A DNA stretch of 64,000 bases from Streptomyces asiaticus (GTDB lineage Bacteria; Actinomycetota; Actinomycetes; Streptomycetales; Streptomycetaceae): positions 8,184,001 through 8,248,000 of the forward strand of contig NZ_JAGSHX010000006.1 of assembly GCF_018138715.1 (NCBI RefSeq), written 5' to 3'. The notes beneath the pieces are model-generated. The model was given only the letters and a program-made list of their open reading frames with translations, was not told the DNA's origin and did not search any database. The first letter of the stretch is position 1. Every line of letters starts with the position of its first letter. Shown one piece after another: positions 5,586 through 42,082 of this stretch. A program made the translations under genes and the position numbers.

Positions 5586-5633
5586 CGCGCTGTGCGGGTC
5601 GGGCGGGCGTGTGCGGCGCGGAGTGGAGGGCCG

Positions 5634-20004: not shown

Positions 20005-22418
20005 CCCCCGACGTCCCGCGCCGGCGGTTCATGGCCCTCGCCGCCACGACCACCACGGGCCTCGCCACCACCGGCCTGCCCGCCGGGGCCGCCCACGCCG
20101 CTCAGCACGGCGGCCACCAGGCGGCGGACCGGCCGCTTGCGCTGTGGTACCGCGCGCCCGCCGCCGACTGGCTGAGCGCCCTGCCGCTGGGCAACGGGCG
20201 GCTCGGCGCGATGGTGTTCGGGGGCACCGAGACCGAGCGGCTCCAGCTCAACGCGGACACCGTCTGGGCGGGCGGGCCGCGGAATTACGACAACCACAAG
20301 GGTCTTGCCGCCCTGCCCCGCATCCGGCAGCTCGTCTTCGACGGCACGTGGCCCGAGGCCGAGACGCTGATCAACTCCGACTTCCTCGGTGTGCCCGGCG
20401 GCCAGGCCCAGTACCAGACCGTCGGCAATCTGCTCCTGACGCTGCCGACGGGCGGCACGGTGTCCGGCTACCGGCGGGACCTGGACCTGGACTCGGCGAT
20501 CGCCACCACCACCTACACCCGCGACGGTGTGACCTACACCCGCGAGGCGTTCGCCAGCGCTCCCGACCGCGTCATCGTCGTCCGGCTGTCCGCGTCGAAG
20601 AAGGGTGCCCTGTCCTTCGGCGCCACGTTCGACAGCCCGCTGCACACCTCCCTGTCCTCGCCCGACCCGCTCACCGCCGCGCTCGACGGGACCGGCGATG
20701 CCACGGGCGGCGTGGACGGCGCGGTGGGGTTCCGCGCGCTGGTGCGGGTGCTCGCCGAGGGCGGCACCACCACCAGCGCGGGCGGAACCGTCACCGTCCG
20801 GGGCGCCGACGCGGCCACCGTTCTGGTGGCCATCGGCACCACCTATGTGAACTGGGAGAACGCCCACGGCGACGCGGTGGGCCGGGCGGCGGCGGACCTC
20901 AACCCGGCGGCGAACCGCCCGTACGGACAGCTGCGCGGCCGCCATGTCGAGGACCACCGCGCGCTGTTCCGCCGTACCTCGCTGGACGTGGGCACCAGCG
21001 ACGCGGCGGCCCTGCCCACCGACGAGCGCGTCACCCGCTTCGCCTCCGGCGGCGATCCGCAACTGATCGAGCTGCACTTCCAGTACGGCCGCTATCTGCT
21101 CATCGCGGCATCCCGCCCCGGCACCCAGCCGGCCAATCTCCAGGGCATCTGGAACGACCTGACGAGCCCGCCCTGGGGCTCGAAGTACACCATCAACATC
21201 AATACGGAGATGAACTACTGGCCGGCCGCCCCCGCCAACCTCCTGGAGTGCTGGGAGCCGGTCTTCGCGCTGCTCGACGAGCTCGCCGTGGCCGGGCAGT
21301 CGACGGCGCGTACCCAGTACGGCGCGAACGGCTGGGTCACCCACCACAACACCGACGCCTGGCGCGGCACGGCGCCCGTGGACGGCGCGTTCTGGGGCAT
21401 GTGGCCGATGGGTGGCGCCTGGCTGTCCATGGCCATCTGGGAGCACTATCGCTACACCCGCGACACGGCGAAGCTGCGGGCGCGCTACCCCGTGCTCAAG
21501 GGCGCCGCCCAGTTCTTCCTCGACGCGCTGGTGACCGACCCGACCACGGGCGCGCTGGTCACCTGCCCCTCCGTCTCCCCGGAGAACGCCCACCACGGCG
21601 GGGGCGGCGGCTCGCTGTGCGCCGGGCCGACGATGGACATGCAGCTGCTGCGCGACCTGTTCGGCGCGGTGGCCTCGGCCGCCGACCTCCTCGGCACCGA
21701 CGCCGCCTTCCGGGACCAGGTGCTCGCCGCGCGCGGACGGCTCGCCCCGATGAAGGTCGGCGCGCGGGGTCAGCTCCAGGAGTGGCAGCAGGACTGGGAC
21801 GCGGGCGCCCCCGAGCAGCAGCACCGCCATGTCTCCCATCTGTACGGGCTGCATCCGAGCAACCAGATCAGCCGGACGCGCACCCCGGAGCTGTTCGCCG
21901 CGGCCCGCACCACCCTCGTCCAGCGCGGTGACGCGGGGACCGGTTGGTCGCTCGCCTGGAAGATCAACTTCTGGGCGCGGCTCCAGGAGGGGGACCGCTC
22001 CTACAAGCTGCTCACCGATCTGCTCACCCCGGAGCGCACCGCCCCCAACCTCTTCGATCTGCATCCGCCGTTCCAGATCGACGGCAACTTCGGCGCCTGC
22101 GCCGGAGTGACCGAATGGCTGTTGCAGAGCCAGCACGACGAACTGCATCTGCTGCCCGCCCTCCCGTCGAACCTGCCGGACGGGAGTGTGCGGGGCCTGC
22201 TGGTGCGGGGCGGTTTCGACGTGGACGTCAGCTGGCGGGGCGGTGCGCTGAGCGAGGCGCGGCTGGGGGCCAGGGCCGGAGGCCCTGCGCGGCTGCGCAC
22301 GGCGAAGGCGGTGCGGGTGACCTCCGGGGACGCACCCGTCGCCACCACCCGGCCGGAGCCGGGGGTCACGGCCTTCACCGCGAACGCGGGCGCCACCTAT
22401 GTGGTCCGTCCCGCCTGA
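20001..22418 (+). CDS. exported GH95 family alpha-L-fucosidase/alpha-galactosidase
   Basis: The 805-residue protein has a Tat-like N-terminus (RRRFMALAATTTTG). The GH95 layout follows: an N-terminal beta domain (LPLGNGRLGAMVFGGTETERLQLN), a helical barrel with NINTEMNYWPA near residue 405, SPEN near 530, HRHVSHLYGLHPSNQIS near 610 and FQIDGNFGACAGVTEWLLQS near 695, then a C-terminal beta domain. The Asn pair in NINTEMNYW and the acidic residues in SPEN and QIDGN match the known inverting mechanism. Substrates are fucosylated plant xyloglucan or host-type glycans. Its GTG overlaps the ThuA stop. The 3' end overlaps a HAD remnant on the other strand. Confidence 0.94.
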   Translation: MTPDVPRRRFMALAATTTTGLATTGLPAGAAHAAQHGGHQAADRPLALWYRAPAADWLSALPLGNGRLGAMVFGGTETERLQLNADTVWAGGPRNYDNHKGLAALPRIRQLVFDGTWPEAETLINSDFLGVPGGQAQYQTVGNLLLTLPTGGTVSGYRRDLDLDSAIATTTYTRDGVTYTREAFASAPDRVIVVRLSASKKGALSFGATFDSPLHTSLSSPDPLTAALDGTGDATGGVDGAVGFRALVRVLAEGGTTTSAGGTVTVRGADAATVLVAIGTTYVNWENAHGDAVGRAAADLNPAANRPYGQLRGRHVEDHRALFRRTSLDVGTSDAAALPTDERVTRFASGGDPQLIELHFQYGRYLLIAASRPGTQPANLQGIWNDLTSPPWGSKYTININTEMNYWPAAPANLLECWEPVFALLDELAVAGQSTARTQYGANGWVTHHNTDAWRGTAPVDGAFWGMWPMGGAWLSMAIWEHYRYTRDTAKLRARYPVLKGAAQFFLDALVTDPTTGALVTCPSVSPENAHHGGGGGSLCAGPTMDMQLLRDLFGAVASAADLLGTDAAFRDQVLAARGRLAPMKVGARGQLQEWQQDWDAGAPEQQHRHVSHLYGLHPSNQISRTRTPELFAAARTTLVQRGDAGTGWSLAWKINFWARLQEGDRSYKLLTDLLTPERTAPNLFDLHPPFQIDGNFGACAGVTEWLLQSQHDELHLLPALPSNLPDGSVRGLLVRGGFDVDVSWRGGALSEARLGARAGGPARLRTAKAVRVTSGDAPVATTRPEPGVTAFTANAGATYVVRPA

Positions 22419-22606
22419 CCGCCTCCCCGCAGCAGGGCGGGGAGGCCGGCCACCGAGTCCAGTACGTGGGTCGCCCCGGCCGCCCGGAACGCCTCGTCAC
22501 CGTGGGCCCCGGTGCGCACCCCGGCGACCAGCCCCGCCCCGGCCCGTACGCCGCTGAGGATGTCGTAGGAGGTGTCGCCGACGACGGCCACATCCAGGGC
22601 GGGGAG
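22397..22606 (-). pseudogene. C-terminal remnant of a HAD-superfamily phosphatase
   Basis: About 69 codons encode a clear HAD tail: DVAVVGDTSYDILSGVRAGA (motif IV, with the GDT-x(3)-D pattern), GVRTGAHGDEAFRAAGATHVLDSVAGLPALL, then a stop. The nucleophile motif DxD and the cap region are absent. Upstream sequence to 22743 has no HAD similarity or usable start. The gene is therefore 5'-truncated. The surviving tail overlaps the GH95 3' end by 22 bases. Confidence 0.6.
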
Positions 22607-22743
22607 GCGTACGCCGGGTAGTAGCGGAAGCTGTCGGCGTCGGCGACCGACTGGTCGTTCGGGTGGTCCACGCGGAGATCGTCGCAGACCGGGGCGCGGG
22701 CCACGGGCGGTGGCCGCCGTCGGCCCCGTTCCGCCCGGTGCCG

Positions 22744-23550
22744 CTACCGGGCCCCCGGGGCGCCGGACTCCAGCAGCCGGCCGCCGTTCCAGACCACACC
22801 GACCTGGCGGTAGTACGCGGCGATCGGTTCGCGGACCTCCAGCCGGGCCAGCTCCTCGGTGGGGGAGTCGAACAGCTCCAGCTCGGCGTCGCCGACCCAC
22901 GGCTGACCGCCCTCGAAGGAGGCGGCGCCGGACTCGATCAGCTCGTCGAGCGCGAGGCCCTTGCCGTTCTCGATCGACGGCAGCCGACGGTGGTGGGCCA
23001 TCGGGTGGCCGTTGACGAAGCCACCGGTCCCGGAGGGCTCGCGCAGGGTCACCACGACCTGGGCGAGGCGCCGGTCGGCCGCGGCGAGGGTCGCGCCGAA
23101 CCGGGCGCCGGGCTCGACGCGCGGGGCGGGCCCGTACGGGTGGGGGCGGGTCTGGTGGATGGAGCCGAGCTTCTTCGGATAGCCCTGGTGCAGGCCACGG
23201 GCGATCGCGAAGTCCTTGTCGACCCAGATGTAGACGCAGCGGGAGTACGTCCGGCCCCGGTACGTACAGCGGACGACCGCGAAGGTCTCCTTGTACTGGG
23301 AGAGCACCGGATCCAGCAGCTCCCGTCCACCGGCCGCGCAGGACTGCCAGTCGGCCCAGATCAGCGCGACCGCCCCCGGGTCCTCCTCGGCGGGCTCCAG
23401 CGGCTCCGGCAGGAGTTCACGCACCCGCGCGGGGTCGGTGCGGTACTCGATGGTGAGCAGATCGCCGGAGTAGTGCCACGGCGGGGCGGGGATGAGGGAC
23501 GCGGCGCCGGTGGCGGTCCTGGGCGGGAAGTAGCCTCGGACGCTGGTCAT
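22744..23550 (-). CDS. acetoacetate decarboxylase family protein
   Basis: The 268-residue protein carries family landmarks: IPAPPWHYSGDLLTIEYRTDPARVRELLPEPL near the start, the GYPKKLGSI motif near residue 125 (the Lys pair supplies the Schiff-base lysine in true decarboxylases), and a C-terminal VVWNGGRL segment. The family includes decarboxylases, aldolase-dehydratases and other Schiff-base enzymes, so the reaction is open. ATG at 23550 follows GGAG. It is the last gene of the aromatic-catabolism operon, 48 bases after the PLP decarboxylase. It might act on a 2- or 3-oxo acid made by ring cleavage. Confidence 0.85.
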   Translation of the reverse strand: MTSVRGYFPPRTATGAASLIPAPPWHYSGDLLTIEYRTDPARVRELLPEPLEPAEEDPGAVALIWADWQSCAAGGRELLDPVLSQYKETFAVVRCTYRGRTYSRCVYIWVDKDFAIARGLHQGYPKKLGSIHQTRPHPYGPAPRVEPGARFGATLAAADRRLAQVVVTLREPSGTGGFVNGHPMAHHRRLPSIENGKGLALDELIESGAASFEGGQPWVGDAELELFDSPTEELARLEVREPIAAYYRQVGVVWNGGRLLESGAPGAR

Positions 23551-23598
23551 GCCGTCACGCTCCTGACGCGGATGGGCTGAGGGGTTCAAGGGGGGCCG

Positions 23599-24960
23599 TC
23601 ACGTGCGCGCGAGCCGCTCCAGACGCTCGTGGAGCTGGTCGACATAGCCCTCGGACTCCGGCTTCATCAGCACACTCCGCAGGACGCGGGCCCCGTCGGC
23701 GTCCCGGACGAGCTTCGGATGGAGGGCCGTCAGCCGATCGGCGCCGACGCGGAGCGTGCTCACGAAGACGGGGTCGCCGTCCGTCATCCCCTCCTGGAGG
23801 ACGCGGTTGCTGGCCGCGTCGATCTGGGACAACGTGGCGGCCTCGGTCACCGGGAAGTAGCTGACGATGTCCAGCTCCGGGGCCTGGTACAGCTCCAGGT
23901 GCTCCGAACCCTCGATCAGTTCGGCCCAGCGCAGCGCCGCCCGCCGGCCCGCCGCGAGCGACTGCCCCAGCCCCTCCCGCGTGGGCGGTATCAGCTGGAA
24001 GGTGAGCCACAGCGCGGCGGCCGCCGCACCCGCGCGGGAACACTCCAGGCTGATCTCGCCGAGGTGCAGTTCCTCGGAGGTGAAGTACGTGTACGGCGAG
24101 TCGTGCAGATAGAACCGGCCCACCGAGGGGTCGCGGAACAGGACGGCGCCGCAGCCGTACGGCTGGAGGCCGTGCTTGTGCGGGTCCACGACGATGGAAT
24201 CCGCCTCGGCGATGGCCCGCCACGGCTCCTCGGGCAGGCCCTCCGGGCCCGGCGCCCCGGCCAGCAGGGTGAAGAAGCCGCCGTAGGCGGCGTCGACGTG
24301 GATGCGCACGCCGTAGCGCTCGCGCAGCGCCGCCGCCTCGTGGATCGGCTCGACGGCGCCGAGCCCGGTGGTGCCGGCGGTGAGCACGACGGTGCCGACG
24401 CGCCCGGTCCGCAGGACCCGCTCCAGCGCGTCGAGATCGATCCGGCCCAGGTCGTCCACCGGGACCGGATGGCCCTCCACTCCGAGGACACCGCACATCC
24501 GGCCGTGGGTGTAGTGGGCCTCGGTGCTGTAGGCGACGCCCTTGTCGGGGTGCAGTTCGCGTGCCACGAAGAGCGCCTCGAGGTTGGCGATGGTGCCGCT
24601 GGTGGTCAGGTGGCCGAGGTGGGTGTCGTAGCCGAACATCGTGGCGAGCTGCTGGACGGCCTCCCGCTCCATCTCGGCGGTGGCCGGGCCGCCGTCCAGA
24701 GCGTGGTTGTTGGGATTGATCAGCATCGCCGTGAGGTAGCCCACGACGGCCGCCGGATGCGGTGGCTTGAGCATCTGGCCCGCGTAACGGGGATGGAAGA
24801 AGGGGTAGTTGTCCTTGAGCCGCTCGGTGAAGACCTCGAACGCGGCGGCGAACCGGTCGTCGTCGACCGCCAGCGCCGGATGGGCCTGGTAGGGGCCGAA
24901 GCTCTTCACCCAGTCGGCGTTCGACGCCACGGCGGTGGCGAGCCAGGCATTCAGATCCAT
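23599..24960 (-). CDS. group II PLP-dependent amino acid decarboxylase
   Basis: The 453-residue protein has the fold type I decarboxylase landmarks: GHLTTSGTIANLEALFVAR near residue 118 (phosphate-binding), AHYTH near 155 (stacking residue), VHVDAAYGG near 220 (Asp to the pyridine nitrogen) and DPHKHGLQPYGCG with PLP lysine 262. The family includes tyrosine, DOPA, tryptophan and glutamate decarboxylases; substrate cannot be read off. ATG at 24960 is chosen because AAGGAG precedes it by eight bases, whereas the in-frame GTG at 24969 sits on that site. Placement in a homoprotocatechuate-type cluster suggests an aromatic amino acid substrate. Confidence 0.9.
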   Translation of the reverse strand: MDLNAWLATAVASNADWVKSFGPYQAHPALAVDDDRFAAAFEVFTERLKDNYPFFHPRYAGQMLKPPHPAAVVGYLTAMLINPNNHALDGGPATAEMEREAVQQLATMFGYDTHLGHLTTSGTIANLEALFVARELHPDKGVAYSTEAHYTHGRMCGVLGVEGHPVPVDDLGRIDLDALERVLRTGRVGTVVLTAGTTGLGAVEPIHEAAALRERYGVRIHVDAAYGGFFTLLAGAPGPEGLPEEPWRAIAEADSIVVDPHKHGLQPYGCGAVLFRDPSVGRFYLHDSPYTYFTSEELHLGEISLECSRAGAAAAALWLTFQLIPPTREGLGQSLAAGRRAALRWAELIEGSEHLELYQAPELDIVSYFPVTEAATLSQIDAASNRVLQEGMTDGDPVFVSTLRVGADRLTALHPKLVRDADGARVLRSVLMKPESEGYVDQLHERLERLART

Positions 24961-25046
24961 GTGGTCCACTCCTTGGTCGGGCGGTCGGGCGGTCGGGCCG
25001 GAGATTCTGTTCAGGGCAGCTGGTGCGGTCAGGGCAGCTGGTGTGC

Positions 25047-25895
25047 TCAGGGCCGCTTGGGCGGGCGGATGCCGCGGAACTCCCAGTCTCCCCCGAGGGC
25101 GGTGGACAGGACCTCCTCCGACGCGGTGGGCTGCGCTCCGACATCGCCGCGGATCGGGGTCGGGCCGGTGACGATGTGGTTGGTGAGCCGCCCCAGGCCC
25201 TCCACCTCCACATCGACCACGTCGCCGGGCTGTACGGGGCGGGAGTTGGCGGGTGTCCCGGAGAGCAGGACGTCACCGGGGTGGAGGGTGATGGTGCGGG
25301 CGATGTCGGCGACGAGGTAGTGCATGTCCCACTCCATCTCGTCGGTGGACCCGTCCTGTGCCAGGCGGCCGTTGACGTAGGTGCGCAGATACTTGCCGCG
25401 GAAGTCCCAGTCGGTGACCAGTCCCGGCCCCAGCGGGCACAGGGTGTCGGACCCCTTCACCCGGAGCATCGAACCGGCGTCGGTGTCCCGGAAGTCGTGC
25501 AGCCCGTAGTCGTTGGCGATGGTGTAACCGGCGATGTGCTCCGCCGCCTGGTGGGGCGCGATGTTCCGCGTGGTCTTCCCGATGACGATGGCCACCTCGC
25601 CCTCGTAGTTGAGCCACTTGCAGCCCTCGGGGCGGACGACGGCGCCCCGGTGGGAGGTGAGGGCCGAGGTCGGCTTGTGGAAGTAGGTGGGGGCGGCGGG
25701 GAGCCGGACCCGGAACTCGGCGACGCGGCTGCGGTGGTTGAGGTGGACCGCGATCACCTTGGAGGGGACCACGGGAGGCAGGTGGTGTGCCTCGTGGATC
25801 GCGACGCGGCGGCCGTCGCCGGTGAGGAGTTCATCGCCCTCGCGGACGGTCTCCACGACCGCGCCGTCGAGGAGGACGCGGCGGTACTCGGGCAT
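25047..25895 (-). CDS. fumarylacetoacetate hydrolase family protein, HpaG-like isomerase/decarboxylase
   Basis: The 282-residue protein contains the FAH-fold signatures FHKPTSALTSHRGAVVRP near residue 80, LNYEGEVAIVIGK near 105 (metal-binding acidic residues), GYTIANDYGLHDFR near 140, KGSDTLCPLGPGLV near 165 and GDVLLSGTPA near 225. In 4-hydroxyphenylacetate catabolism, such enzymes decarboxylate and isomerise the ring-cleavage product after oxidation. This is a single FAH domain, whereas E. coli HpaG has two. GAGGAG precedes the ATG, 11 bases after the dioxygenase stop. Confidence 0.88.
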   Translation of the reverse strand: MPEYRRVLLDGAVVETVREGDELLTGDGRRVAIHEAHHLPPVVPSKVIAVHLNHRSRVAEFRVRLPAAPTYFHKPTSALTSHRGAVVRPEGCKWLNYEGEVAIVIGKTTRNIAPHQAAEHIAGYTIANDYGLHDFRDTDAGSMLRVKGSDTLCPLGPGLVTDWDFRGKYLRTYVNGRLAQDGSTDEMEWDMHYLVADIARTITLHPGDVLLSGTPANSRPVQPGDVVDVEVEGLGRLTNHIVTGPTPIRGDVGAQPTASEEVLSTALGGDWEFRGIRPPKRP

Positions 25896-25906
25896 GTCGG
25901 CTCTCC

Positions 25907-26836
25907 TCAGGCGGGGCTGGACGGGGTGGTGGCGGACGTGGCCGGGCCGGTGCCGGTCCAGCCGTCCGCCGGGCGGTCGAACCAGAGGTGGGCCTGGCCG
26001 GTGCCGACGGAGTTCTCGTACGCGCCGTACTGGCGGGCCGGGGCCACGCACCCCCGCTCGCCGAGGGCGCCGGCCATCATCAGATAGTGGAAGAACCTCG
26101 CCTCGGGCTGGTACGTCCAGAACTCGTCCATGGTGTCGAGTACCTTGCCGTGGCGGCCCTCCTTGAGCCAGGCGATGCGCTCCTCGTCGGCCGCCCTCGC
26201 CTGGGGGGTGAAGACATGGCGCGGGTCGCTGGCCTCGTGGTCCCGGATCTCGCGCAGTGGCCAGAAGGTGTGCGAGAGGGCGCCGGAGGCGATCAGGAGC
26301 ACACGGCGGCCGGGGGTGGCGGCGATGCCGTCGGCCAGCGCCCGGCCCAGCCGGAAGTGGTCCTCCATGTCGCCGGTCTGGCACACCCCGATCGTCATCC
26401 ACCGCTTGCCGGGCAGCCCCTCGCCCAGGAACTTCCAGAGGTTGACGGTGGCGTAGTGGATCGGCAGGAAGGGGTCGTCGATCGGGGTGATGAAGGTGCC
26501 GTGTGCCTCGGCGAACCGGGCGACGGCGTGGGCGAGTTCGGGATCGCCCGGGAAGTCGTACGGCATCCGGCACATGCCCCGTGGCAGCTCGTCGGAGGTG
26601 AACAGCCCCGCGCGCCGCGAGTGGGCCGTCACGACGAACTCGACCGTGGTGGCCCAGTGGGAGTCCAGGACCACCACGGTGTCGTAGTCATCGCGTCCGA
26701 AGACGTCCTCGCGGAGCTGCCGGAGGCCGGTGACCAGGGTGATCTCCTTGCCCTCGTTGAGCTCGCGCCGGGTTTCCCCGGGGAGCACGATGGTGGGGAC
26801 GTGGGCGAGCAGACCCGCCCCGACGATCTCACCCAT
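25907..26836 (-). CDS. LigB-type extradiol dioxygenase, homoprotocatechuate 2,3-dioxygenase-like
   Basis: The 309-residue protein begins AGLLAHVPTIVLPGE, with the metal-binding histidine in HVP, and shows VVLDSHWATT near residue 58 and SGALSHTFWPLREIRDHEASDPRHVF near 180. All are typical of class III extradiol dioxygenases of the 3,4-dihydroxyphenylacetate branch, which open the catechol ring with Fe(II) and O2. Its ATG overlaps the stop of the dehydrogenase gene by eight bases, indicating coupled translation. The last ~15 residues are low-complexity Thr/Ser/Ala. Confidence 0.9.
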   Translation of the reverse strand: MGEIVGAGLLAHVPTIVLPGETRRELNEGKEITLVTGLRQLREDVFGRDDYDTVVVLDSHWATTVEFVVTAHSRRAGLFTSDELPRGMCRMPYDFPGDPELAHAVARFAEAHGTFITPIDDPFLPIHYATVNLWKFLGEGLPGKRWMTIGVCQTGDMEDHFRLGRALADGIAATPGRRVLLIASGALSHTFWPLREIRDHEASDPRHVFTPQARAADEERIAWLKEGRHGKVLDTMDEFWTYQPEARFFHYLMMAGALGERGCVAPARQYGAYENSVGTGQAHLWFDRPADGWTGTGPATSATTPSSPA

Positions 26837-28340
26837 GGTCGCTGAATCCCTCTCTGGCGGTCACGCGGTTCTTCAGATCGCAGTAGAAGTCGAAGCTCCA
26901 GGTGCCGCCCTCGCGGCCCACGCCGGAGAGCCGGGAGCCGCCGAAGGGCGCCCGCAGATCGCGTACGAAGAAGCAGTTGACCCAGACCGTGCCCGCCACC
27001 AGCCGGGCGGTGACGCGTTCGGCGCGCCGGTGGTCGCCGGTGGCCACGGTGGCGGCCAGTCCGTAGCGGGTGTCGTTGGCGAGGTGGATCGCCTCCGCCT
27101 CGTCCGCGAAGGTCTGGAGCGTCAGCACCGGGCCGAAGACCTCCTCCTGCGCGATCTCCGAGTCCTGGGCGACATCGGTGAGGAGGGTGGGCCGGTAGTA
27201 CAGACCGCCGAGCCGGGTGTGGGAGCCGCCGCCGAAGACCACGCGGGCCCCGGCCGCGATCGCTCGCCGTACGAAACCGTCGATCCGCTCGAGCTGGCGG
27301 GGGTGGATGGTGGGCCCGATGTCGGTGGCCTCCTCGCGTGGATCGCCCTGCGTCAGCCGGGCGGCCTTGCGCAGGAGGCGGTCGGTGAACTCGTCCGCGA
27401 CCGACTCCTCGACGAGGAGGCGGGTGGCGGCCAGACACACCTGCCCGGCGTTGTCGAACTGCTCCACGGCGAGGTCGGCGGCCAGTTCCAGATCCGCGTC
27501 CGCGAAGACCAACAGCGGTGACTTGCCGCCGAGTTCGAGGCTCAGCGGGGTGAGGTTCCGGGCGGCCGAGGCGGCGATGCGCCGGGCGGTCGGGACCGAG
27601 CCGGTGAAACTGATCCGGCGGACGTCCGGATGGGAGGTGAGGTCGTCGCCGATCTCGGAGCCATGGCCCTGGACCACGTTGAGGACACCGGGCGGCAGCC
27701 CCGCCTCGGCGGCGATGTCCGCGAGCAGTGAGGCGGTCAGCGGGGACCACTCCGCGGGCTTGAGCACCACCGTGTTCCCGGCGGCCAGGGCCGGGGCGAC
27801 CTTCCAGGTGGCCAGCATCAGCGGGGCGTTCCACGGCGTGATCAGCACACAGGGGCCCGCCGGGTCCCAGCTGATGTGATGGGTGTGGCCGGGGCCGGTG
27901 GGGCCGCCGGTGTGCGTCGTGAAGTCCTCGTGGCCCAGGGTGAGCCGCCAGTCCGCGAAGAAGCGGAAGTTGCGGGCGGCACGCGGTATGACACCCCGGC
28001 GGTGCGAGCGCAGCAGCGCGCCGTTGTCCGTGGTCTCGACGATCGCCAGCTCCTCCAGACGCTCCTCCACGCCGTCGGCGATGGCGTGGAGGACGCGGGC
28101 GCGCTCGGCCGGGGGAGTGGCGGCCCAGCCGGGGAAGGCGGCCTGGGCGGCGGCCACGGCGGCCTCGGCCTCGTCGGAGCCGCCGCGGGCGATCCGGGCG
28201 AGGGTGCTGCCGTCGATGGGTGAGAGGTCGGGGAAGGTGTCGGCGGACGCCACGCGCCGGCCGTCGATCCAGTGCCGGGTGTCGACGGCGACACCGGCGA
28301 TCAGAGCCTCGCTCACAGCTGTGTCCGGCCGTTGGGGCAT
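26829..28340 (-). CDS. aldehyde dehydrogenase, 5-carboxymethyl-2-hydroxymuconate semialdehyde dehydrogenase-like
   Basis: The 503-residue NAD(P)-dependent aldehyde dehydrogenase shows ITPWNAPLMLATWKVAPALAAGN near residue 165, SFTGSVPTARRIA near 245, the catalytic Glu in LELGGKSP near 270 and the nucleophilic Cys in FDNAGQVCLA near 305. Placement directly before an extradiol dioxygenase and an FAH-fold protein supports oxidation of the ring-cleavage semialdehyde. GGAGG lies eight bases before the ATG at 28340. A palindromic operator lies 17 bases upstream of that ATG. Confidence 0.92.
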   Translation of the reverse strand: MPQRPDTAVSEALIAGVAVDTRHWIDGRRVASADTFPDLSPIDGSTLARIARGGSDEAEAAVAAAQAAFPGWAATPPAERARVLHAIADGVEERLEELAIVETTDNGALLRSHRRGVIPRAARNFRFFADWRLTLGHEDFTTHTGGPTGPGHTHHISWDPAGPCVLITPWNAPLMLATWKVAPALAAGNTVVLKPAEWSPLTASLLADIAAEAGLPPGVLNVVQGHGSEIGDDLTSHPDVRRISFTGSVPTARRIAASAARNLTPLSLELGGKSPLLVFADADLELAADLAVEQFDNAGQVCLAATRLLVEESVADEFTDRLLRKAARLTQGDPREEATDIGPTIHPRQLERIDGFVRRAIAAGARVVFGGGSHTRLGGLYYRPTLLTDVAQDSEIAQEEVFGPVLTLQTFADEAEAIHLANDTRYGLAATVATGDHRRAERVTARLVAGTVWVNCFFVRDLRAPFGGSRLSGVGREGGTWSFDFYCDLKNRVTAREGFSDHG

Positions 28341-28356
28341 GTCCCGGTCCTCCATT

Positions 28357-28374
28357 TTGTTTGACCCCAAACAA
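28357..28374. promoter_or_regulatory. TTGTTTG-N4-CAAACAA operator before the dehydrogenase gene
   Basis: Perfect 7-base arms with an ACCC spacer lie in the 118-base gap between the MarR gene and the dehydrogenase gene. A second site with the same TTTG-N4-CAAA core (10 of 12 bases identical when reversed) lies at 29175-29186. The adjacent MarR protein is the likely ligand. Confidence 0.65.
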
Positions 28375-28458
28375 GCTAGACGTGCCACGGGGCCGGGTCA
28401 AGGTCGCCCCGGTGGCCGGGGCCTGGGGAGCCGCTCCGGGGACGTGCCCGGGGCGCGG

Positions 28459-29034
28459 TCACTGGCGGGAGCGGCGGCCCGAACGTCGCGGGGCGAGATC
28501 CCTTCCGTCGAGCAGCTGCCGTCGGCGCTCCTCGCCGTGCTCCTCCAACTGCGCCACGATCGCGCGCAGTCCGTTGGCCAGCCGCAGGCACTCCTCGGCG
28601 CTCAGCGGCGTGGCGACGAACGCCTCTTCGGCGTTGAACGCGGGGAAGAGGCGCTCCATGAGCTCCTCGCCCTCGGGGGTGAGCGAGAGCAGCACGCGCC
28701 GCCCGTCCTCGGGGTGGGACGCGCGGGCCACCAGGTGACGCGACTCCAGGGTGCGCGCGATCCCGGTCAGCGTCCCCTTGGAGATGCCCGCCTCTTCCGC
28801 GACCGACCAGGTCTCGGCCTCGCCCCAGATCCACAGCACCCACAGCACCACGAAGCCGGTCCAGGTCAGATCGTGCGGGCGCAGCGCGGAGTTCTCGAGA
28901 TGCTGGCGGACGGCCGCGGCGGCGCGGTGGATGTTCGCGATGGCGGCCATCTGTTCACGCTGCAACTCGAAACCGCCGAGTCGTTCCTGGACGGCCTGTT
29001 CGGTCTCGGCGATGGATCGGCGGCGCCCGGGCAC
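28459..29034 (-). CDS. MarR family regulator of the aromatic-catabolism cluster
   Basis: The 191-residue protein has a MarR winged-helix core (about residues 55-140; LTWTGFVVLWVLWIWGEAETWSVAEEAGISKGTLTGIARTLESR, wing HPEDGRRVLLSLTPEG). It has a longer helical N-terminus and a basic C-terminal tail. GTG at 29034 follows GAGGAGG. Its position between the meta-cleavage genes and a divergent ligase, with matching operators on both sides, makes it the probable repressor of the whole cluster, as HpaR/HpcR are in enteric 4-hydroxyphenylacetate operons. Confidence 0.9.
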   Translation of the reverse strand: MPGRRRSIAETEQAVQERLGGFELQREQMAAIANIHRAAAAVRQHLENSALRPHDLTWTGFVVLWVLWIWGEAETWSVAEEAGISKGTLTGIARTLESRHLVARASHPEDGRRVLLSLTPEGEELMERLFPAFNAEEAFVATPLSAEECLRLANGLRAIVAQLEEHGEERRRQLLDGRDLAPRRSGRRSRQ

Positions 29035-29174
29035 GGTGGATCCTCCTCGGCTTCGGGCGGCCTGGGCCGCCGGGTGATTCGTTCGCGCTCAAATGTAGCC
29101 CCAGCGCGCCGGATGCCGGGTGACGGCAACCCTTGTGGACGGCCCGGCCGCCTCGTATCGTGTGGCCTCCCTCG

Positions 29175-29186
29175 TTTGGCATCAAA
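29175..29186. promoter_or_regulatory. TTTG-GCAT-CAAA operator before the glutamine-synthetase-like gene
   Basis: The 4-4-4 palindrome lies between the divergent MarR start (29034) and the ligase start (29270). Its reverse complement matches the core of the 28357-28374 site in 10 of 12 bases with the same spacing. It could control both the regulator and the ligase. Confidence 0.55.
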
Positions 29187-29269
29187 TAATTCCGGCGCCC
29201 TCGGGGGCCGGAACAGAGCACGGGGCCGGAACGGAGCACACCGTCCGGCCCGCTTCCAGGGAGTGACCA

Positions 29270-30625
29270 TTGAGCGCCGAGACAGCCGACCGGGTCCACC
29301 GGAGGACCGAGGCGCTCGCGGCCGAGGGCATCGACGTCGTACGGGTCGCCTATCCCGACATGATGGGCTCCGACCGGAGCAGGGACATCCTGCTGCACCA
29401 TCTGCCGCATGCGGTCGGCCACGGGCTCGCCTTCAGCCGGGCCGTGTACCACACCGCGGCCCTGGGCGATCACTCCTCCATCCCCGGCGGCCTCGAAGCC
29501 GGTATGCCGGACTTCCTCGTCCGCCCCGACCTGACCACGCTCGTCGCCGTGCCGTGGGAACCGGGCGTGGCCTGGTGCATCGGCGACGTCCGGGACCCGG
29601 ACAGCGGGCTGCCCGTGCCCGAATCGCCCCGTGACCTGCTGCGTCAGATCATCGGCCGGCTGCTCGACGCGGATCTGACCGCGGTCGTGGGGCCGGAGCT
29701 GGAGTACGTCCTGCTCGACCCGGACCCGGACTCGCCCGTCGGCTGGCGGCGCTACGCCCCCGCCCCGGGCCATGTCTATACGACCGGCCGCAAGGGCGAC
29801 CCGGACGGACACCTCCTGCGCACCCTCCGGGCGTTGCACGCGCTCGGGCTCGACGTCAGCGGCGGCAACCGGGAGTTCGACAGCGGTCAGTTCGAGATCA
29901 ACCTCAGCCACTCCGAGGCGCTGGACGCCGCGGACCGGGCCTTTCGCTTCAAGGCGGCGGTCAGGGAACTCGCCCATGGGGAGGGCAGGTTGGCCACGTT
30001 CATGGCCAAGCCGTTCAACGACGGAGGCGGCTCGGGATTCCATGTCCACCTGTCCCTCGTGGACGCGGACGGCCGCAACGTCTTCGACGCGCCCCGGGAG
30101 CCGTACGGGCTGTCCGCCTCGGCGCGCCACGCCCTGGCGGGCGTGCTCGCCCACGCCCCCGCGCTCTCCGCGCTGCTCAACCCCACCGTCAACTCGTACA
30201 AGCGCTTCGGCCCGGACACCACGGCCCCCTGGCTGGTCAACTGGGGCCTGGACAACCGCAACGCCCTGGTGCGCGTCCCGCCCGAGCGCGGCGGCGCCGC
30301 CCGACTTGAGGCACGCCTCGGCGACGCCACCGCCAATCCCTACCTCGCCATCGCCGGTCTGCTCGCCGCGGCCCAGCTGGGCATCGCCGCCGCCGAGGAG
30401 CCCCCGACGCCGATGACCGGCGAGGGCCGCGACAGGGGCACCGCCACCCTGCTGCCGACCGACCTCGGCCGGGCCCTCGACGCCCTGGAAGGCGACGACG
30501 AGCTCACCGATGTGCTCGGCAAGCCCTTCGTCGACGCCTTCCTCACCTTCAAGCGCGATGAGCTCGCCAGGTTCCAGCGGTACGTCACCGACTGGGAGTT
30601 CCGCGAGTACGCGCGGCTCATCTGA
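29270..30625 (+). CDS. glutamine synthetase-like gamma-glutamyl-amine ligase
   Basis: The 451-residue protein has the GS fold: beta-grasp N-terminal domain, then VGPELEYVLLD near residue 143 (metal-binding Glu pair), SGQFEINLSHSEAL near 205, GSGFHVHLSL near 248 and KRFGPDTTAPWLVNWGLDNRNALVRVP near 305. It is shorter than GlnA-I and lacks its adenylylation tyrosine loop, as do ligases such as PuuA and Streptomyces GlnA3/GlnA4 that glutamylate amines. TTG at 29270 follows AGGGAG. Beside an amino acid decarboxylase, the natural inference is glutamylation of the amine it makes, but the substrate is not proven. Confidence 0.88.
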   Translation: MSAETADRVHRRTEALAAEGIDVVRVAYPDMMGSDRSRDILLHHLPHAVGHGLAFSRAVYHTAALGDHSSIPGGLEAGMPDFLVRPDLTTLVAVPWEPGVAWCIGDVRDPDSGLPVPESPRDLLRQIIGRLLDADLTAVVGPELEYVLLDPDPDSPVGWRRYAPAPGHVYTTGRKGDPDGHLLRTLRALHALGLDVSGGNREFDSGQFEINLSHSEALDAADRAFRFKAAVRELAHGEGRLATFMAKPFNDGGGSGFHVHLSLVDADGRNVFDAPREPYGLSASARHALAGVLAHAPALSALLNPTVNSYKRFGPDTTAPWLVNWGLDNRNALVRVPPERGGAARLEARLGDATANPYLAIAGLLAAAQLGIAAAEEPPTPMTGEGRDRGTATLLPTDLGRALDALEGDDELTDVLGKPFVDAFLTFKRDELARFQRYVTDWEFREYARLI

Positions 30626-31560: not shown

Positions 31561-33932
<2,372 letters not shown>

Positions 33933-38045: not shown

Positions 38046-38274
38046 GCCGGACGCCAGGACGGGGCCCGCACACCCGGGCTCGGCCCTGGCGTCCGGCGGC
38101 GCGTCGGACCGCCCCGGGTTGTCCGGTCAAGCCGCCCGTTGTCTCCCGCATCGTTCAGACAGCCGTAACCGACGGCGCGGGGTGTGCACACCTGTTCTCC
38201 GCAGGGTGGGCGTCATCCCCGGTGCCCTCACTCCCCGAGAGGCCCGATTCGCCCCACCGCTCGAAGGACGACGC

Positions 38275-39213
38275 ATGCCTCGCCACCTCCGCATCCCCCT
38301 CGCCGCCGCGCTGCTGCCGCTCGTGCTCACGGCCTGCGGGGCCAGCGCCTCCGACAACGGCTCCACCTCGGAGGGACGGGACCCCGACACCCTGGTGGTC
38401 GCGGCGATCCCGTCGGAGAACTCCACCTCGCTCGCCCAGCAGTACGCCCCGATCGTCAAGCTGCTGGAGGCCGAGACCGGCAAGAAGGTCCAGATGCAGA
38501 AGGCGACCAGCTACGCCGCCGTCATCGAGGCGCAGCGGGCGCACAAGGCGGACGTCGCGCTGTACGGTCCGCTCTCCTACGTCGTCGCCAAGGACAGCGG
38601 AGCGGGGGTGAAGCTGGCCGGTGCGCTGGTCGCCGCCAAGGGCGGGACACCGGGCTACCAGTCGTACGGCATCACCCGCAGCGGCAACAAGGACATCAAG
38701 AGCCTCGCCGACTTCAAGGGCCGCAAGGTGTGCTTCGTGGACCCGACCTCGACGTCCGGCTATCTCTATCCGCAGTCCGGTCTGCTGAAGGCGGGCGTGA
38801 AGGCCGGCGACTACACCAAGGTCATGGCGGGCGGCCACGACGCCTCGGCGCTGTCGGTCGCCTCCGGTGACTGCGACGCGGGCTTCGCGTTCGACACCAT
38901 GGTGGACAGCGACCTGATCAAGCAGGGCAAGCTCAAGAAGGGCCAGCTGAAGACCGTCTGGAAGTCCACCGAGATCCCCGGCTCGCCCGCCGCGGTCTCC
39001 ACCGACCTCACCGCGAGCCTCCAGAAGAAGATCGTCGACGCGTTCGAGACCAAGGCCAACGCCGACTACATGGAGTCCAAGGGCTACTGCTCCGGCGACG
39101 GCTGCAAGATCGACGACAACTGGGGCTTCGTCGCGGTGAAGGACTCCGCCTACGACAGCGTCCGCGCGGTCTGCGACGCCACCAAGGACGCGCAGTGCAA
39201 GGGCGGCTCGTGA
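38275..39213 (+). CDS. phnD: phosphonate/phosphate ABC transporter substrate-binding lipoprotein
   Basis: The 312-residue lipoprotein has a signal with lipobox LVLTAC (Cys21). The PhnD/SsuA-like binding fold follows: LVVAAIPSENSTSLAQQYAPIVKLLEAETGKKV, YAAVIEAQRAHKADVALYGPLSYVVA, GYQSYGITRSGNKDIKSLADFKGRKVCFVDPTSTSGYLYP and AGGHDASALSVASGDCDAGF. Cysteines near the C-terminus may form disulfides. AAGGA precedes the ATG. Its TGA overlaps the phnC ATG. Homologous PhnD of Mycobacterium smegmatis belongs to a phosphate importer, so phosphate is as likely a ligand as phosphonate. Confidence 0.93.
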   Translation: MPRHLRIPLAAALLPLVLTACGASASDNGSTSEGRDPDTLVVAAIPSENSTSLAQQYAPIVKLLEAETGKKVQMQKATSYAAVIEAQRAHKADVALYGPLSYVVAKDSGAGVKLAGALVAAKGGTPGYQSYGITRSGNKDIKSLADFKGRKVCFVDPTSTSGYLYPQSGLLKAGVKAGDYTKVMAGGHDASALSVASGDCDAGFAFDTMVDSDLIKQGKLKKGQLKTVWKSTEIPGSPAAVSTDLTASLQKKIVDAFETKANADYMESKGYCSGDGCKIDDNWGFVAVKDSAYDSVRAVCDATKDAQCKGGS

Positions 39214-40169
39214 TGGCCACGGCCCCGACCGCCGTCAACGCCACCGCCACCGCCACCGGCTCCCCGGCCATCGCCTCCCCGGCCACCGGCTCCCCGGCCA
39301 CCGCCGGGGAGCCGGTGATCCGGCTGGACGGTCTGACGAAGCGGTTCGGCAGCGGCGCCGACTCCCTGCTCGCCCTGGACGAGGTGTCGTTCGAGGTGCG
39401 GCCCGGCGAGGTCGTGGCCCTGCTGGGGCTGTCCGGCTCCGGCAAGTCGACGCTGCTCTCGCTGCTCGACGGGCTCCAGGCGCCGACCTCCGGCGACGGC
39501 ACCGTCCTCGGCACCGCGCTGGCCCGGGCCGACCGGTCCGAGCTGCGCGCGCTGCGCCGCCGGATCGGCTTTGTCTTCCAGCAGTTCCATCTGGTGGGCC
39601 GGCTCAGCGTCCTGGAGAACGTGTGCACCGGCGCCCTCGGGTCGCTGCGCGGGCCCCGGCTGGGGCTGCTCAGCTATCCGCGGGCGGTGCGGGAACGCGC
39701 GCTGGACGGGCTGGAGCAGGTGGGCCTGGCCGCGCACGCCTTCCAGCGGGCGGACACCCTGTCCGGCGGCCAGCAGCAGCGCGTCGCGGTGGCCCGCGCC
39801 CTGATGCAGGAACCCGGCCTGCTGCTGGCCGACGAGCCGGTGGCCTCCCTCGACCCCGAGTCCTCGGCCCAGGTCATGCGGCTGCTGGCGCGCGTGGCCC
39901 GGGAGCGGGAGCTGACCGTGCTGTGCAGCCTGCACCAGGTCGATCTGGCCCTGTCCTGGGCGCATCGGATCGTCGGCCTGCGGTCGGGCCGGGTGGTGAT
40001 GGACGTCGCCACCGAGGGCATCGACCGCGCGACGGTGATGCGGCTGTACGAGGAGGTGGCCGCCGGGAGCGCCGAGGGCATGGCCGCGGCCGTCGCGGCG
40101 GGCTCGACCGTCGCCCGCCACCCCGTCTCCGCGTCCGTCCCCGTCCCCGCGCTCGCGAAGGGGGACTGA
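39213..40169 (+). CDS. phnC: phosphonate/phosphate ABC transporter ATPase
   Basis: The 318-residue ATPase has Walker A GLSGSGKST at 72-80, the Q-loop region FVFQQFHLVGRLSVLENV, signature LSGGQQQRV and Walker B LLLADEPVASLD. It also has the switch His in SLHQVDLALSWAHR. It has an unusual N-terminal extension of about 33 residues, Ala/Thr/Ser/Pro-rich with repeats of SPAT and SPAI, encoded by a stretch that folds into a 15-base-pair hairpin. It overlaps phnD by one base (TGATG) and is followed at once by the permease. Confidence 0.93.
   Translation: MATAPTAVNATATATGSPAIASPATGSPATAGEPVIRLDGLTKRFGSGADSLLALDEVSFEVRPGEVVALLGLSGSGKSTLLSLLDGLQAPTSGDGTVLGTALARADRSELRALRRRIGFVFQQFHLVGRLSVLENVCTGALGSLRGPRLGLLSYPRAVRERALDGLEQVGLAAHAFQRADTLSGGQQQRVAVARALMQEPGLLLADEPVASLDPESSAQVMRLLARVARERELTVLCSLHQVDLALSWAHRIVGLRSGRVVMDVATEGIDRATVMRLYEEVAAGSAEGMAAAVAAGSTVARHPVSASVPVPALAKGD
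39284..39317 (+). repeat. 15-base-pair perfect hairpin inside the start of phnC
   Basis: CACCGGCTCCCCGGC pairs perfectly with its complement across a four-base loop (CACC), 71 bases into phnC. It is stable enough to stall ribosomes or RNases. It could set a higher level of phnD than of phnC-phnE. Confidence 0.8.
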
Positions 40170-40291
40170 GTGTCGGTAGTCGAACAGCATCCCCCGGCCG
40201 CGCCCCCAGCGGACCCGGCCCGGGGCCCGGCGCCGCGGGTCCGCACCGGCGGTCCCTGGCCCGGCCCACCGCGGCCGGGCTCGGCGCGGCC

Positions 40292-41968
40292 ATGGCACTG
40301 CTGCTGTGCGTGGGCGGCGGCGTCTGGGCGTTCATCGCGCTCCGGCTCAACATCGCCACACTCATGGACAGCGCCGACAACGCGGTGGCCTTCCTCTCCC
40401 GGGCGCTCCCGCTGGACTTCCCGCCGATCGGTGAACTGCTCTCGCTGATCTGGCAGACGCTGGCCATCGTGGTCTCCGCCACCGTGCTCTCGGTGGTGCT
40501 CAGCGTGCCGCTGGCCCTGCTGGCGGCCCGTAACACCACCCCGGGGACCGCCGCCCGGGCCGCCGCGCGCGGGGTGATCGTGCTCTGCCGCGCGGTCCCC
40601 GAGGTGGTCTTCGCCATCGCCGCCTTCCGTGTCTTCGGGCTGGGCGGGATGACCGGTGTGGTCGCGCTCGGTGTCCACTCCGTCGGCATGGTGGGCAAGC
40701 TGTACGCCGACGCCGTCGAGCAGACCGACGAGGGCCCGCGCACCGCGCTGCGCGCGACCGGCGCCGGGCGGTTGCAGCAGATCACCGCGGCGGTGCTGCC
40801 GCAGGCGCTGCCGTCCCTGGTGGCCACCGCGCTGCACCGCCTCGACATCAACCTGCGCGCCTCGGCCGTGCTCGGCTTCGTCGGTGTCAACGGTCTGGGG
40901 TACGCGCTGTCCACGGCGATCACCACCCTCGACTACCAGCGGGCGATGGCGATCGCGCTGGTCCTGCTGCTGCTCTGCTTCGTGGCCGAGTCGATCTCCG
41001 GTGCGATCCGACGCACCCTGCTCCAGGACGTCACCGTGGCACGGCGGCCCCGCCGTTCGTGGCCGGTCTTCCCGGGCGCGCGCCGCGACAGCCGGCCGGG
41101 CGACACCGCCGCCGCCGGGGACGCCGCTGTGGACACCTCCGCGTCCCCGGCCGACGGTGCCACGTCCACGTCCACGCCCGTACGCCGCCGCAGCCTGCCG
41201 CGCTGGAGCGCCCGGCGGATCCGCCGGACCACCTGGCTGGTGCTCACCGTCGCCCTGGTCGTGGCCTCGGCCCTGCGCTCCGGTCTGTCCTGGGGCACCC
41301 TGCGGCGCGGCGCCGAGTCGTTCTTCCCGACGCTGGGCGACTTCCTGCCGCCCGGCACCGGGGGGATCGGCGGCCAGCTCTGGGCCGATCTGTGGGTCAC
41401 CCTCCAGATCGCGCTCGCGGGCACCCTCATCGGGCTGGTCCTGGCGCTGCCGCTGGGCACCCTCGCGGCGCGGAACGTGGTGGGGTCGCCCCGGGTGGCG
41501 CGGTTCTTCCGCACGGTCATCCTCCTGGTGCGGGCCGTCCCGGAGCTCGTCCTGGCGATCGTCTTCGTCGTCGTGACCGGCCTGGGCGCGGTCTCCGGCG
41601 CGCTCGCCCTCGGCGTCGGCTCGGTCGGTCTGCTCGGCAAGCTGGTGGCGGACTCCCTGGAGGAGACCGACCCCGGCCCGGCCCGCGCCCTGGTGGCCAC
41701 CGGTGCCCGCAGGCATCAGGTGTTCTTCGGGGCCGTTCTGCCCCGGGCCCGGCCCGCGGTGGTGGGGCATCTGCTGTACCAGCTCGACGTCAATCTGCGC
41801 TCGGCGACCCTGCTCGGCATCGTCGGCGCCGGTGGCGTCGGCTACGACCTGCTGAACGCGGCCCGGGTCCTCCAGTTCCCGGTGGTCACCACCATCGTGC
41901 TGATGGTGCTGGGGCTGGTGCTGCTCATCGAGGGGCTGGCCGTCTGGGCGCGCAAGGTGTATGCCTGA
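40292..41968 (+). CDS. phnE: phosphonate/phosphate ABC transporter permease, two PhnE domains fused
   Basis: From ATG 40292 the product has 558 residues. It contains two complete PhnE/MetI-type permease domains: about 1-240 (LIWQTLAIVVSATVLSVVLSVPLALLAARN, EQTDEGPRTALRATGA) and 330-558 (DLWVTLQIALAGTLIGLVLALPLGTLAARN, EETDPGPARALVATGA). A hydrophilic Ala/Ser/Thr-rich linker joins them. The start is uncertain. A GTG at 40170 overlaps the phnC stop region (TGAGTG) and opens a plausible N-terminus (MSVVEQHPP...), but in another frame. The true frame is open upstream and encodes RRSLARPTAAGLG before the ATG. A one-base indel near 40240-40260 would join them. Confidence 0.88.
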   Translation: MALLLCVGGGVWAFIALRLNIATLMDSADNAVAFLSRALPLDFPPIGELLSLIWQTLAIVVSATVLSVVLSVPLALLAARNTTPGTAARAAARGVIVLCRAVPEVVFAIAAFRVFGLGGMTGVVALGVHSVGMVGKLYADAVEQTDEGPRTALRATGAGRLQQITAAVLPQALPSLVATALHRLDINLRASAVLGFVGVNGLGYALSTAITTLDYQRAMAIALVLLLLCFVAESISGAIRRTLLQDVTVARRPRRSWPVFPGARRDSRPGDTAAAGDAAVDTSASPADGATSTSTPVRRRSLPRWSARRIRRTTWLVLTVALVVASALRSGLSWGTLRRGAESFFPTLGDFLPPGTGGIGGQLWADLWVTLQIALAGTLIGLVLALPLGTLAARNVVGSPRVARFFRTVILLVRAVPELVLAIVFVVVTGLGAVSGALALGVGSVGLLGKLVADSLEETDPGPARALVATGARRHQVFFGAVLPRARPAVVGHLLYQLDVNLRSATLLGIVGAGGVGYDLLNAARVLQFPVVTTIVLMVLGLVLLIEGLAVWARKVYA

Positions 41969-41990
41969 CCAGGCGCTCCGCCGCATGGCA

Positions 41991-42082
41991 GGGGCCCCGT
42001 CCCTGGACTCGGGGTCTGGGGCGGAGCCCCCCACGCGGCGGAGCCGCAGGTCGTCAGGCGCTGGGAAGGGGCGGGGAGGGGA
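41991..42082. repeat. partial copy C of the GC-rich intergenic repeat
   Basis: After the phnE stop, GGGGCGGAGCCCC-type sequence, one copy of the CACGCGGCGGAGCCGCA repeat (42032-42048) and the block GGGAAGGGGCGGGGAGGGGAA (42063-42083) match the right half of copies A and B. The left half and the inverted ends are not recognisable, so this is a truncated or diverged copy. It could terminate phnE transcription. Confidence 0.7.

Follow-up and report, generated by a model that had tools for sequence, protein, structure and literature searches.

A 64,000-nucleotide stretch of the Streptomyces asiaticus genome (contig NZ_JAGSHX010000006.1, positions 8,184,001 to 8,248,000; below, the window, to which all coordinates refer) harbors a cluster of seven genes that probably serves the catabolism of a hydroxylated phenethylamine, whose amine would stay bound as a gamma-glutamyl amide while the ring is opened. 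The general class of such a route, comprising a gamma-glutamylated aromatic amine, ring opening and a Puu-type finish, is likely, and dopamine or tyramine is our best guess for the amine. A fuller version, whose chances we regard as evenly balanced, is that the ring of an amine derived from tyrosine or 3,4-dihydroxyphenylalanine (DOPA) is dismantled under gamma-glutamyl protection and that cleavage yields gamma-glutamyl-gamma-aminobutyraldehyde, which would enter the Puu pathway to gamma-aminobutyrate (GABA); several actinobacterial families could in this way convert a catecholamine to GABA and pyruvate without an amine oxidase, with a protein of the acetoacetate decarboxylase (ADC) superfamily as the final hydratase-aldolase. 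The usual explanation for how bacteria remove tyramine and dopamine invokes amine oxidases and, after them, the homoprotocatechuate route. The cluster appears to recombine two known pathways in a manner for which we found no precedent in the literature searched; titles and abstract openings, in a search made mostly without subscription journals, held no description of such a route.

Organization of the cluster

The open reading frames (ORFs) of the window were assigned by Pfam and then scored against curated NCBIfam models. The genome measures 11.88 Mb, and its closest named relatives are Streptomyces, with S. iranensis at 96% across four core proteins. On the minus strand, the gene of an HpaE-like aldehyde dehydrogenase (ALDH; 26829..28340, PF00171 (Aldedh), with an alternative in-frame ATG ending at 28355) overlaps by 8 bases that of a LigB-type extradiol dioxygenase (25907..26836, PF02900 (LigB)), which is followed after 11 bases by the gene of a fumarylacetoacetate hydrolase (FAH)-fold protein, HpaG C-terminal-like (25047..25895, PF01557 (FAA_hydrolase), 3e-54), after a further 77 bases by that of a group II pyridoxal phosphate (PLP) decarboxylase (23599..24969, PF00282 (Pyridoxal_deC)) and after another 48 by that of the ADC-superfamily protein (22744..23550, PF06314, 4e-58). 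A MarR-family regulator is encoded at 28459..29034 (minus strand, PF01047), and a glutamine synthetase (GS)-like gamma-glutamyl amine ligase (29270..30625, plus strand, PF00120 (Gln-synt_C), 2e-94) diverges from the other genes. Coordinates, strands and Pfam agree here with a preliminary description of this DNA, which had given the same one-directional order with overlaps or short gaps and the same divergent ligase. The absences it listed were likewise upheld: amine oxidase, HpaB, HpaC and aldolase families were all unmatched among 45 window ORFs run through Pfam (a subset of all possible ORFs, two of them without any match). The P450 and Rieske families also had no match in this set, and its sole hydratase by name was an aconitase-family protein at 44389-46419. 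Each of the seven cluster proteins has a recognisable nearest NCBIfam family and none attains its cut-off, a pattern that we read as suggesting related chemistry on a different substrate.

Conservation of the cluster in actinobacteria

The cluster was compared with 92 loci of Streptomycetaceae, 80 of 285 and 12 from a second search (L060 and L125 are one locus, counted twice). Among them, ALDH was found in 91, FAH in 90, ADC in 88, the ligase in 83, a second, PuuC-like aldehyde dehydrogenase (ALDH2) in 76, a PuuD-like hydrolase in 75, a cytochrome P450 in 73 and the decarboxylase in 7. In the usual order of the P450-bearing loci (type 1), P450 and ligase diverge from ferredoxin, reductase, ADC, ALDH, LigB and FAH, followed by TetR, an APC permease, ALDH2 and the PuuD-like hydrolase; in S. 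scabiei (L072), the longest versions of the P450 and ligase ORFs share 4 bases. The seven window-like loci (type 2) have the ligase divergent from MarR, ALDH, LigB, FAH, PLP decarboxylase and ADC, and two of them, L040 and L069, additionally carry ALDH2 and PuuD. Both types occur together in S. dysideae RV15 and Streptomyces sp. A012304.

At E <= 1e-25, LigB relatives were present in 37 of 396 genomes across the phylum, among them the genome studied here and two congeners; 32 of the other 34 show 49-56% identity, and two show 43% and 31%. These 34 distant loci, many of which end at contig ends, hold ALDH (28), P450 (20, a few weak), ligase (18), FAH (17), ADC (17), PLP decarboxylase (15), MarR (13), a class III aminotransferase (10) and a dehydrogenase resembling succinic semialdehyde dehydrogenase (SSADH; 9). 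The compact locus L165 combines PuuC-like, acyl-CoA-dehydrogenase-like, P450, PuuD-like, ligase, MarR, FAH, ALDH, LigB and ADC genes. A second class I glutamine-amidotransferase-like family, with PRK07053 as the best model of the two members tested, occurs in six of the distant loci and in L040 (members include L040:5222-5920, L173:16171-16893 and L228:9205-9897) and has its own operator in genome G004; perhaps it hydrolyses gamma-glutamyl amides.

The preliminary description had joined the decarboxylase, the gamma-glutamyl ligase and the extradiol block in one system, and comparison across genomes did not find them unlinked: the ligase shares the LigB locus in 83/92 and 18/34 cases, and the decarboxylase does so in only 7/92 and 15/34, but in two genomes it bears the same operator away from the cluster. 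No Streptomycetaceae locus has both decarboxylase and P450, and the two were considered as mutually exclusive alternatives; this was ruled out by nine distant loci that have both (P450 at least 50% identical to a query) and by the off-site decarboxylases under the operator in G004 and G023, which indicate that decarboxylase and P450 can belong to one pathway. One LigB relative (57-58%), in L119, lies in a different cluster with ORFs that, judged by eye from their starts, are flavin-reductase-, asparagine-synthase- and PLP-decarboxylase-like; this cluster looks biosynthetic rather than catabolic.

A common operator motif

The single MarR operator first described was not borne out, as two copies flank the MarR gene: TTGTTTGACCCCAAACAA (28357-28374), immediately 5' of the ALDH start and with 0 mismatches to the motif, and TCGTTTGGCATCAAATAA (29172-29189), an exact TYRTTTGN4CAAAYRA site between the MarR and ligase genes. 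When up to 3 mismatches to TTGTTTGN4CAAACAA were allowed, the cluster sites were two of the genome's three best (0 and 2 mismatches, the third also 2). A wider MarR regulon through this third site, TTGTTTCACGTGAAACAA, was set aside, as it looks like a chromosome-partition site, presumably parS. The relaxed motif TYRTTTGN4CAAAYRA, built from the window and its relatives, has exactly 2 sites in the 11.88 Mb genome, both at the cluster, and its reversed control has none; a second regulon member supplying the PuuC/PuuD step in this strain was rejected, there being no third exact operator in the genome.

In 93 stretches (the 92 loci and the window, 1.86 Mb), each of the 114 exact sites has the start of a cluster gene no more than 450 bp away, and the reversed motif is absent. 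The operator stands within 450 bp of the start of 79 of 83 ligases, a TTGTTTGACCCCAAACAA-type site upstream of ALDH is kept in relatives, and 18 sites precede ALDH2, six of them shared with a divergent ALDH. The motif was also sought in 22 further genomes, of which 18 came from the remaining 28 with LigB and 4 were LigB-negative. It had 25 exact sites, which were distributed over all 18 LigB-positive genomes, and 23 of them were within about 10 kb of LigB; the 4 LigB-negative genomes had none, and the reversed motif occurred twice across all 22. The remaining two sites, G004:C4:809686 and G023:C26:97274, overlap the longest-ORF start of orthologs of the window decarboxylase (83% and 85%) and are therefore placed at its promoter, so that the decarboxylase has the cluster's operator without being its neighbor. 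Both genomes have a P450-bearing cluster elsewhere (L117 and L121); in G023 a MarR ortholog (68%) adjoins the off-site decarboxylase, and in G004 one more operator precedes a class I amidotransferase gene. Linkage and the common operator motif are well supported by computation. The MarR protein, which is presumed to bind both operators, scores 51.7 bits with the HpaR model (cut-off 121), and its relatives occur in 54/92 Streptomycetaceae and 13/34 distant loci.

The ligase and the decarboxylase

The ligase scores 261 bits with the gamma-glutamylputrescine synthetase model NF045547 (cut-off 650) and 284 bits with that of type III glutamate-ammonia ligase (cut-off 470). An alignment to E. coli GlnA and PuuA shows conservation of E129, E131, E212, E220, H269, R321, R339, E357 and R359, which we take to be the metal, ATP and glutamate residues, the Glu327 flap presumably serving ammonia. 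Flap position 327 is Thr in the window ligase, Tyr in PuuA and Glu in GlnA, and none of the 100 ligases read, the window's included, has Glu there (L069 gave no flap residue). With this ammonia-site glutamate lost, the protein is most likely an amine ligase. Amine ligases are reported to lose both the flap and Asp50' (PMC11335346); the window ligase has Asp at position 50 and lacks this second mark.

The flap residue is Thr or Ala in 7/7 type 2 ligases, Leu in 76/76 other Streptomycetaceae and Leu, Met, Ile or Phe in 17/17 distant ones. The altered site of type 2 is as expected if these ligases accepted a different amine, although common ancestry could yield the same pattern. A reading of this residue as a marker of P450 loss was rejected: L050, L059 and L062 have no P450 in their stretches, yet have Leu, and the first two also lack the decarboxylase; the residue marks the type instead. 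The type 2 ligase of Streptomyces sp. A012304 is called only as a short ORF of 137 aa (L069:7192-7605), which may be broken or misassembled, and the strain's type 1 cluster is L065.

For the decarboxylase, the best two NCBIfam models are tyrosine decarboxylases, TIGR03811 (122 bits, cut-off 905) and TIGR03812 (121 bits, cut-off 299). The best solved matches are 6ebn, 5hsi and 7cwx, with the PLP lysine, an upstream histidine and a DPHK..G..PY motif aligned, which we take to hold the catalytic residues. The protein is proposed to be a DOPA/tyrosine decarboxylase. A close ortholog of the cluster P450 is missing from the genome, where the best match is 40% and none exceeds 42%. HpaB (PF03241) is likewise unmatched there in a search that was positive in 4 of 14 control genomes, and one tyrosinase is encoded. 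DOPA is the likeliest substrate in this strain because it is already a catechol; another, unlinked hydroxylase may exist.

Ring-cleavage enzymes and the ADC-superfamily protein

The dioxygenase scores 107 bits with TIGR02298 (HpaD; cut-off 316) and aligns to 8iq8 across residues 1-286, and the ALDH scores 531 bits with TIGR02299 (HpaE; cut-off 638). The FAH protein reaches 204.5 bits with TIGR02303 (HpaG C-terminal; cut-off 276.4) and 110 of 229 bits with the HpaG N-terminal model; it corresponds to residues 216-426 of 1gtt and is proposed to be an isomerase/decarboxylase. The ADC protein had been thought a possible substitute for the second HpaG domain, which is not supported by its nearest solved chains, 6eej, 4zbo (SbiADC, we believe) and 4jm3 (MppR), members of the ADC superfamily with which a PKK(L/F)G lysine motif aligns. 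It scores 171 bits with the MppR model (cut-off 380) and differs from MppR in this respect. In work on SbiADC and Swit_4259, the ADC lysine reportedly reacts with 2-oxo acids to give Schiff bases, and aldol and dehydration chemistry is reported for relatives. We know of no catabolic role for this branch of the superfamily. Because of the lysine-motif chemistry of these relatives, and because the cluster holds no other candidate for the hydration/aldol step, the ADC protein is proposed to act as hydratase/retro-aldolase of the lower pathway.

A proposed route to GABA and pyruvate

E. coli Puu proteins were used as queries on 127 stretches (the window and 126 loci). Relatives of PuuA were found in 100, of PuuP in 87, of PuuD in 79, of PuuE in 14 and of PuuC in 122 (other ALDH included), while no PuuB-like oxidase was found in any of the 127, other amine oxidase families not having been searched in relatives. 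The same PuuB query finds relatives elsewhere in the window strain's genome (6e-39), so its miss in the stretches does not come from an insensitive query. Identity to E. coli PuuC is 47-50% across 482-489 residues for four ALDH2 proteins, against 41% for the window ALDH, and the best model of ALDH2 is PuuC (557-580 bits, cut-off 850); the PuuD scores of relatives are also under the cut-off. In the E. coli K-12 annotation, PuuC is named for gamma-glutamyl-gamma-aminobutyraldehyde and PuuD for gamma-glutamyl-gamma-aminobutyrate.

The homoprotocatechuate route leads from 3,4-dihydroxyphenylacetate to pyruvate and succinic semialdehyde through a dioxygenase, a semialdehyde dehydrogenase, isomerases/decarboxylase, a hydratase and an aldolase (PMC12718150). 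The ring side chain ends in the semialdehyde. Applied to gamma-glutamyl-dopamine, which has CH2CH2-NH-gamma-glutamyl as its side chain, these steps would give pyruvate and gamma-glutamyl-gamma-aminobutyraldehyde, the substrate of PuuC. We therefore propose the following order of events. The PLP decarboxylase would convert an aromatic amino acid to the amine (here probably DOPA, in P450-bearing relatives probably tyrosine), and the ligase would attach glutamate to it; in relatives of type 1, where ferredoxin and reductase accompany it, and in distant ones, the P450 would add the second ring hydroxyl, glutamylation and hydroxylation following each other in an order that we infer. LigB would then cut the ring of gamma-glutamyl-dopamine beside the diol, the HpaE-like dehydrogenase would oxidise the semialdehyde, the FAH protein would isomerise and decarboxylate, and the ADC protein may hydrate and cleave the 2-oxo acid to pyruvate and gamma-glutamyl-gamma-aminobutyraldehyde. 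A PuuC-like dehydrogenase and a PuuD-like hydrolase would finally release GABA and glutamate, and the MarR protein would control the pathway through the one operator motif.

In our interpretation, ring opening of the glutamylated amine would explain the recurrence of PuuA-, PuuC- and PuuD-like genes together with the missing PuuB, and the same assumption would account for the class III aminotransferase and SSADH-like gene of some distant loci. The earlier idea of a decarboxylated aromatic amino acid, a glutamylated amine and an opened ring is largely retained, and the fate of the amine is changed: the expected amine oxidase and standard homoprotocatechuate route give way to opening of the glutamylated ring, which fits the PuuC- and PuuD-like genes and the lack of PuuB in relatives. 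A class III aminotransferase adjoins the window cluster (32523..33932, plus strand, PF00202) and is a possible GABA transaminase, its cluster membership being uncertain; its best family, like that of two distant members tested, is PRK08117, and such a gene is linked in only 3 of the 92 loci (L034-L036).

The cluster is like the Puu pathway in that its ligase lacks the Glu327 flap and its relatives carry a PuuC-like dehydrogenase, a PuuD-like hydrolase and an APC permease, and unlike it in that ring cleavage, instead of the oxidation of a second amine, is proposed as the source of the aldehyde. It shares with the Hpa pathway the LigB dioxygenase, HpaE-like dehydrogenase, HpaG-like FAH protein and MarR-type regulator; unlike that pathway, it stays below the equivalog cut-offs, has no HpaB/C found and no recognised HpaF-, HpaH- or HpaI-type genes among the cluster genes, and adds the ligase, the decarboxylase (or P450 in relatives) and the ADC protein. 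GlnA2, GlnA3 and GlnA4 of Streptomyces coelicolor are also actinobacterial GS-like amine ligases, but the openings of the abstracts on them concern polyamines and ethanolamine and mention no ring-cleavage genes (PMC8998196, PMC5403932, PMC6529630).

Several observations weigh against this route. PuuC- and PuuD-like genes are absent from the window cluster, and the best ALDH2 match elsewhere in the genome is 51% and the one PuuD match 41%; without close orthologs, the last steps must be borrowed. The PuuD relative (L162) has a further GS-like gene (35%) within about 4 kb and an ALDH within about 5 kb, so that a general amine locus could supply them. PuuD-like and ALDH2/PuuC-like genes occur in only 4 of the 34 distant loci each, and the role given to the ADC protein depends on work on its relatives. 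The decarboxylase belongs to a large family (at least 7998 scored candidates), is not seen in 85 of the 92 loci, and in the two distant members tested represents another subfamily, which best matches diaminobutyrate decarboxylase models, so that an aromatic substrate is not established for distant loci. In twelve of the 92 loci both P450 and decarboxylase are missing; roughly half of the twelve are truncated and the others are 20-kb stretches, and two of them, L050 and L059, are long stretches with a ligase and without P450 or ferredoxin. The motif was drawn partly from the loci themselves, which in part accounts for its sites in them; how rare it is elsewhere and the off-site finds are independent of the derivation. 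Lastly, on a tree of four core proteins the type 2 loci split into a window clade of five and L040/L069, which suggests that the exchange between types occurred twice or that core genes recombined. This tree (58 of 94 complete rows, a quick method without a mixture model, with a long-branch warning) left out 8 of 102 stretches lacking a complete set, type 2 locus L105 among them.

Alternative explanations

The strongest alternative is the conventional homoprotocatechuate route, in which an unlinked amine oxidase would yield the arylacetaldehyde, ALDH2 the arylacetate and the P450 3,4-dihydroxyphenylacetate, LigB, HpaE and FAH enzymes would follow, and the ligase would only detoxify surplus amine. 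The best models of LigB and ALDH are indeed Hpa proteins, and the FAH protein is strong with HpaG models, but all these scores stay under the equivalog cut-offs. Most source names among the 120 LigB matches listed are 3,4-dihydroxyphenylacetate 2,3-dioxygenase, and three ALDH2 proteins reach 469-493 bits against models of phenylacetaldehyde dehydrogenase and HpaE, yet PuuC remains the best ALDH2 model. PuuB-like oxidoreductases exist elsewhere in the window strain's genome, whereas the related stretches have none, within the search described above; in addition, this route leaves the PuuD-like hydrolase of 75/92 loci without a role. We therefore consider it unlikely, at roughly a chance in four or five.

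Far less probable is an arylamine (aniline-type) pathway, in which the ligase would make a gamma-glutamyl anilide as AtdA/NpaA do, a P450 would replace the Rieske dioxygenase and LigB would cut the ring. Clusters for aniline and 1-naphthylamine are likewise marked by GS-like and glutamine-amidotransferase-like genes, and in the AtdA1/NpaA1 systems, as proposed here, a GS-like ligase masks an aromatic amine ahead of oxygenation (PMC11335346). The amidotransferase-like family of the six distant loci, L040 and the G004 operator would fit. In those systems, however, the amine sits on the ring and is removed by a ring-hydroxylating dioxygenase (PMC11335346), while an alkyl amine is proposed here to stay masked through ring opening; an amino acid decarboxylase under the common operator would yield an alkyl amine, not aniline, the HpaE/HpaG-like enzymes and PuuC-like dehydrogenase do not suit this pathway, and the 45 window ORFs hold no Rieske family, relatives having the P450 instead (73/92). 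A loose neighborhood, in which a meta-cleavage operon and a polyamine-type ligase adjoin by chance and the decarboxylase serves acid stress or another amine, draws on the commonness of ALDH and decarboxylase families in streptomycetes and on the physical linkage of the decarboxylase in only 7/92 loci, but is the least probable of all, given a ligase linked in 83/92 and 18/34 loci and a rare operator motif common to ligase, ring-cleavage genes, some ALDH2 genes and off-site decarboxylases.

If gamma-glutamyl-protected ring cleavage is correct, it would constitute a second solution for tyramine and dopamine breakdown and connect the degradation of aromatic amines with GABA. It would assign one class of ADC-superfamily proteins a function and explain the GS-like proteins found beside 'homoprotocatechuate dioxygenases' in many actinobacteria. 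It would also predict the real roles of genes named 3,4-dihydroxyphenylacetate dioxygenase, catechol 1,2-dioxygenase and aspartate aminotransferase.

Other features of the window

An ORF on the minus strand 3' of the ADC gene (22397-22900) has no Pfam match and by eye resembles the end of a HAD-type phosphatase, perhaps a decayed gene. A 2-oxoacid:ferredoxin oxidoreductase (POR)-like protein with POR, DUF6537 and thiamine diphosphate (TPP) domains is encoded at 1912-5715 (minus strand), and an Lrp/AsnC regulator ORF on the opposite strand (5592-6074, plus) overlaps the start of its gene; this pair may represent another route of amino acid catabolism. Genes of a phosphonate-type ABC transporter, with a GntR/UTRA regulator after them, occupy 38119-42933 (plus strand), and an ORF of 1366 residues at 49994-54094 (plus strand) carries a CHAT (caspase-like) domain at its end.

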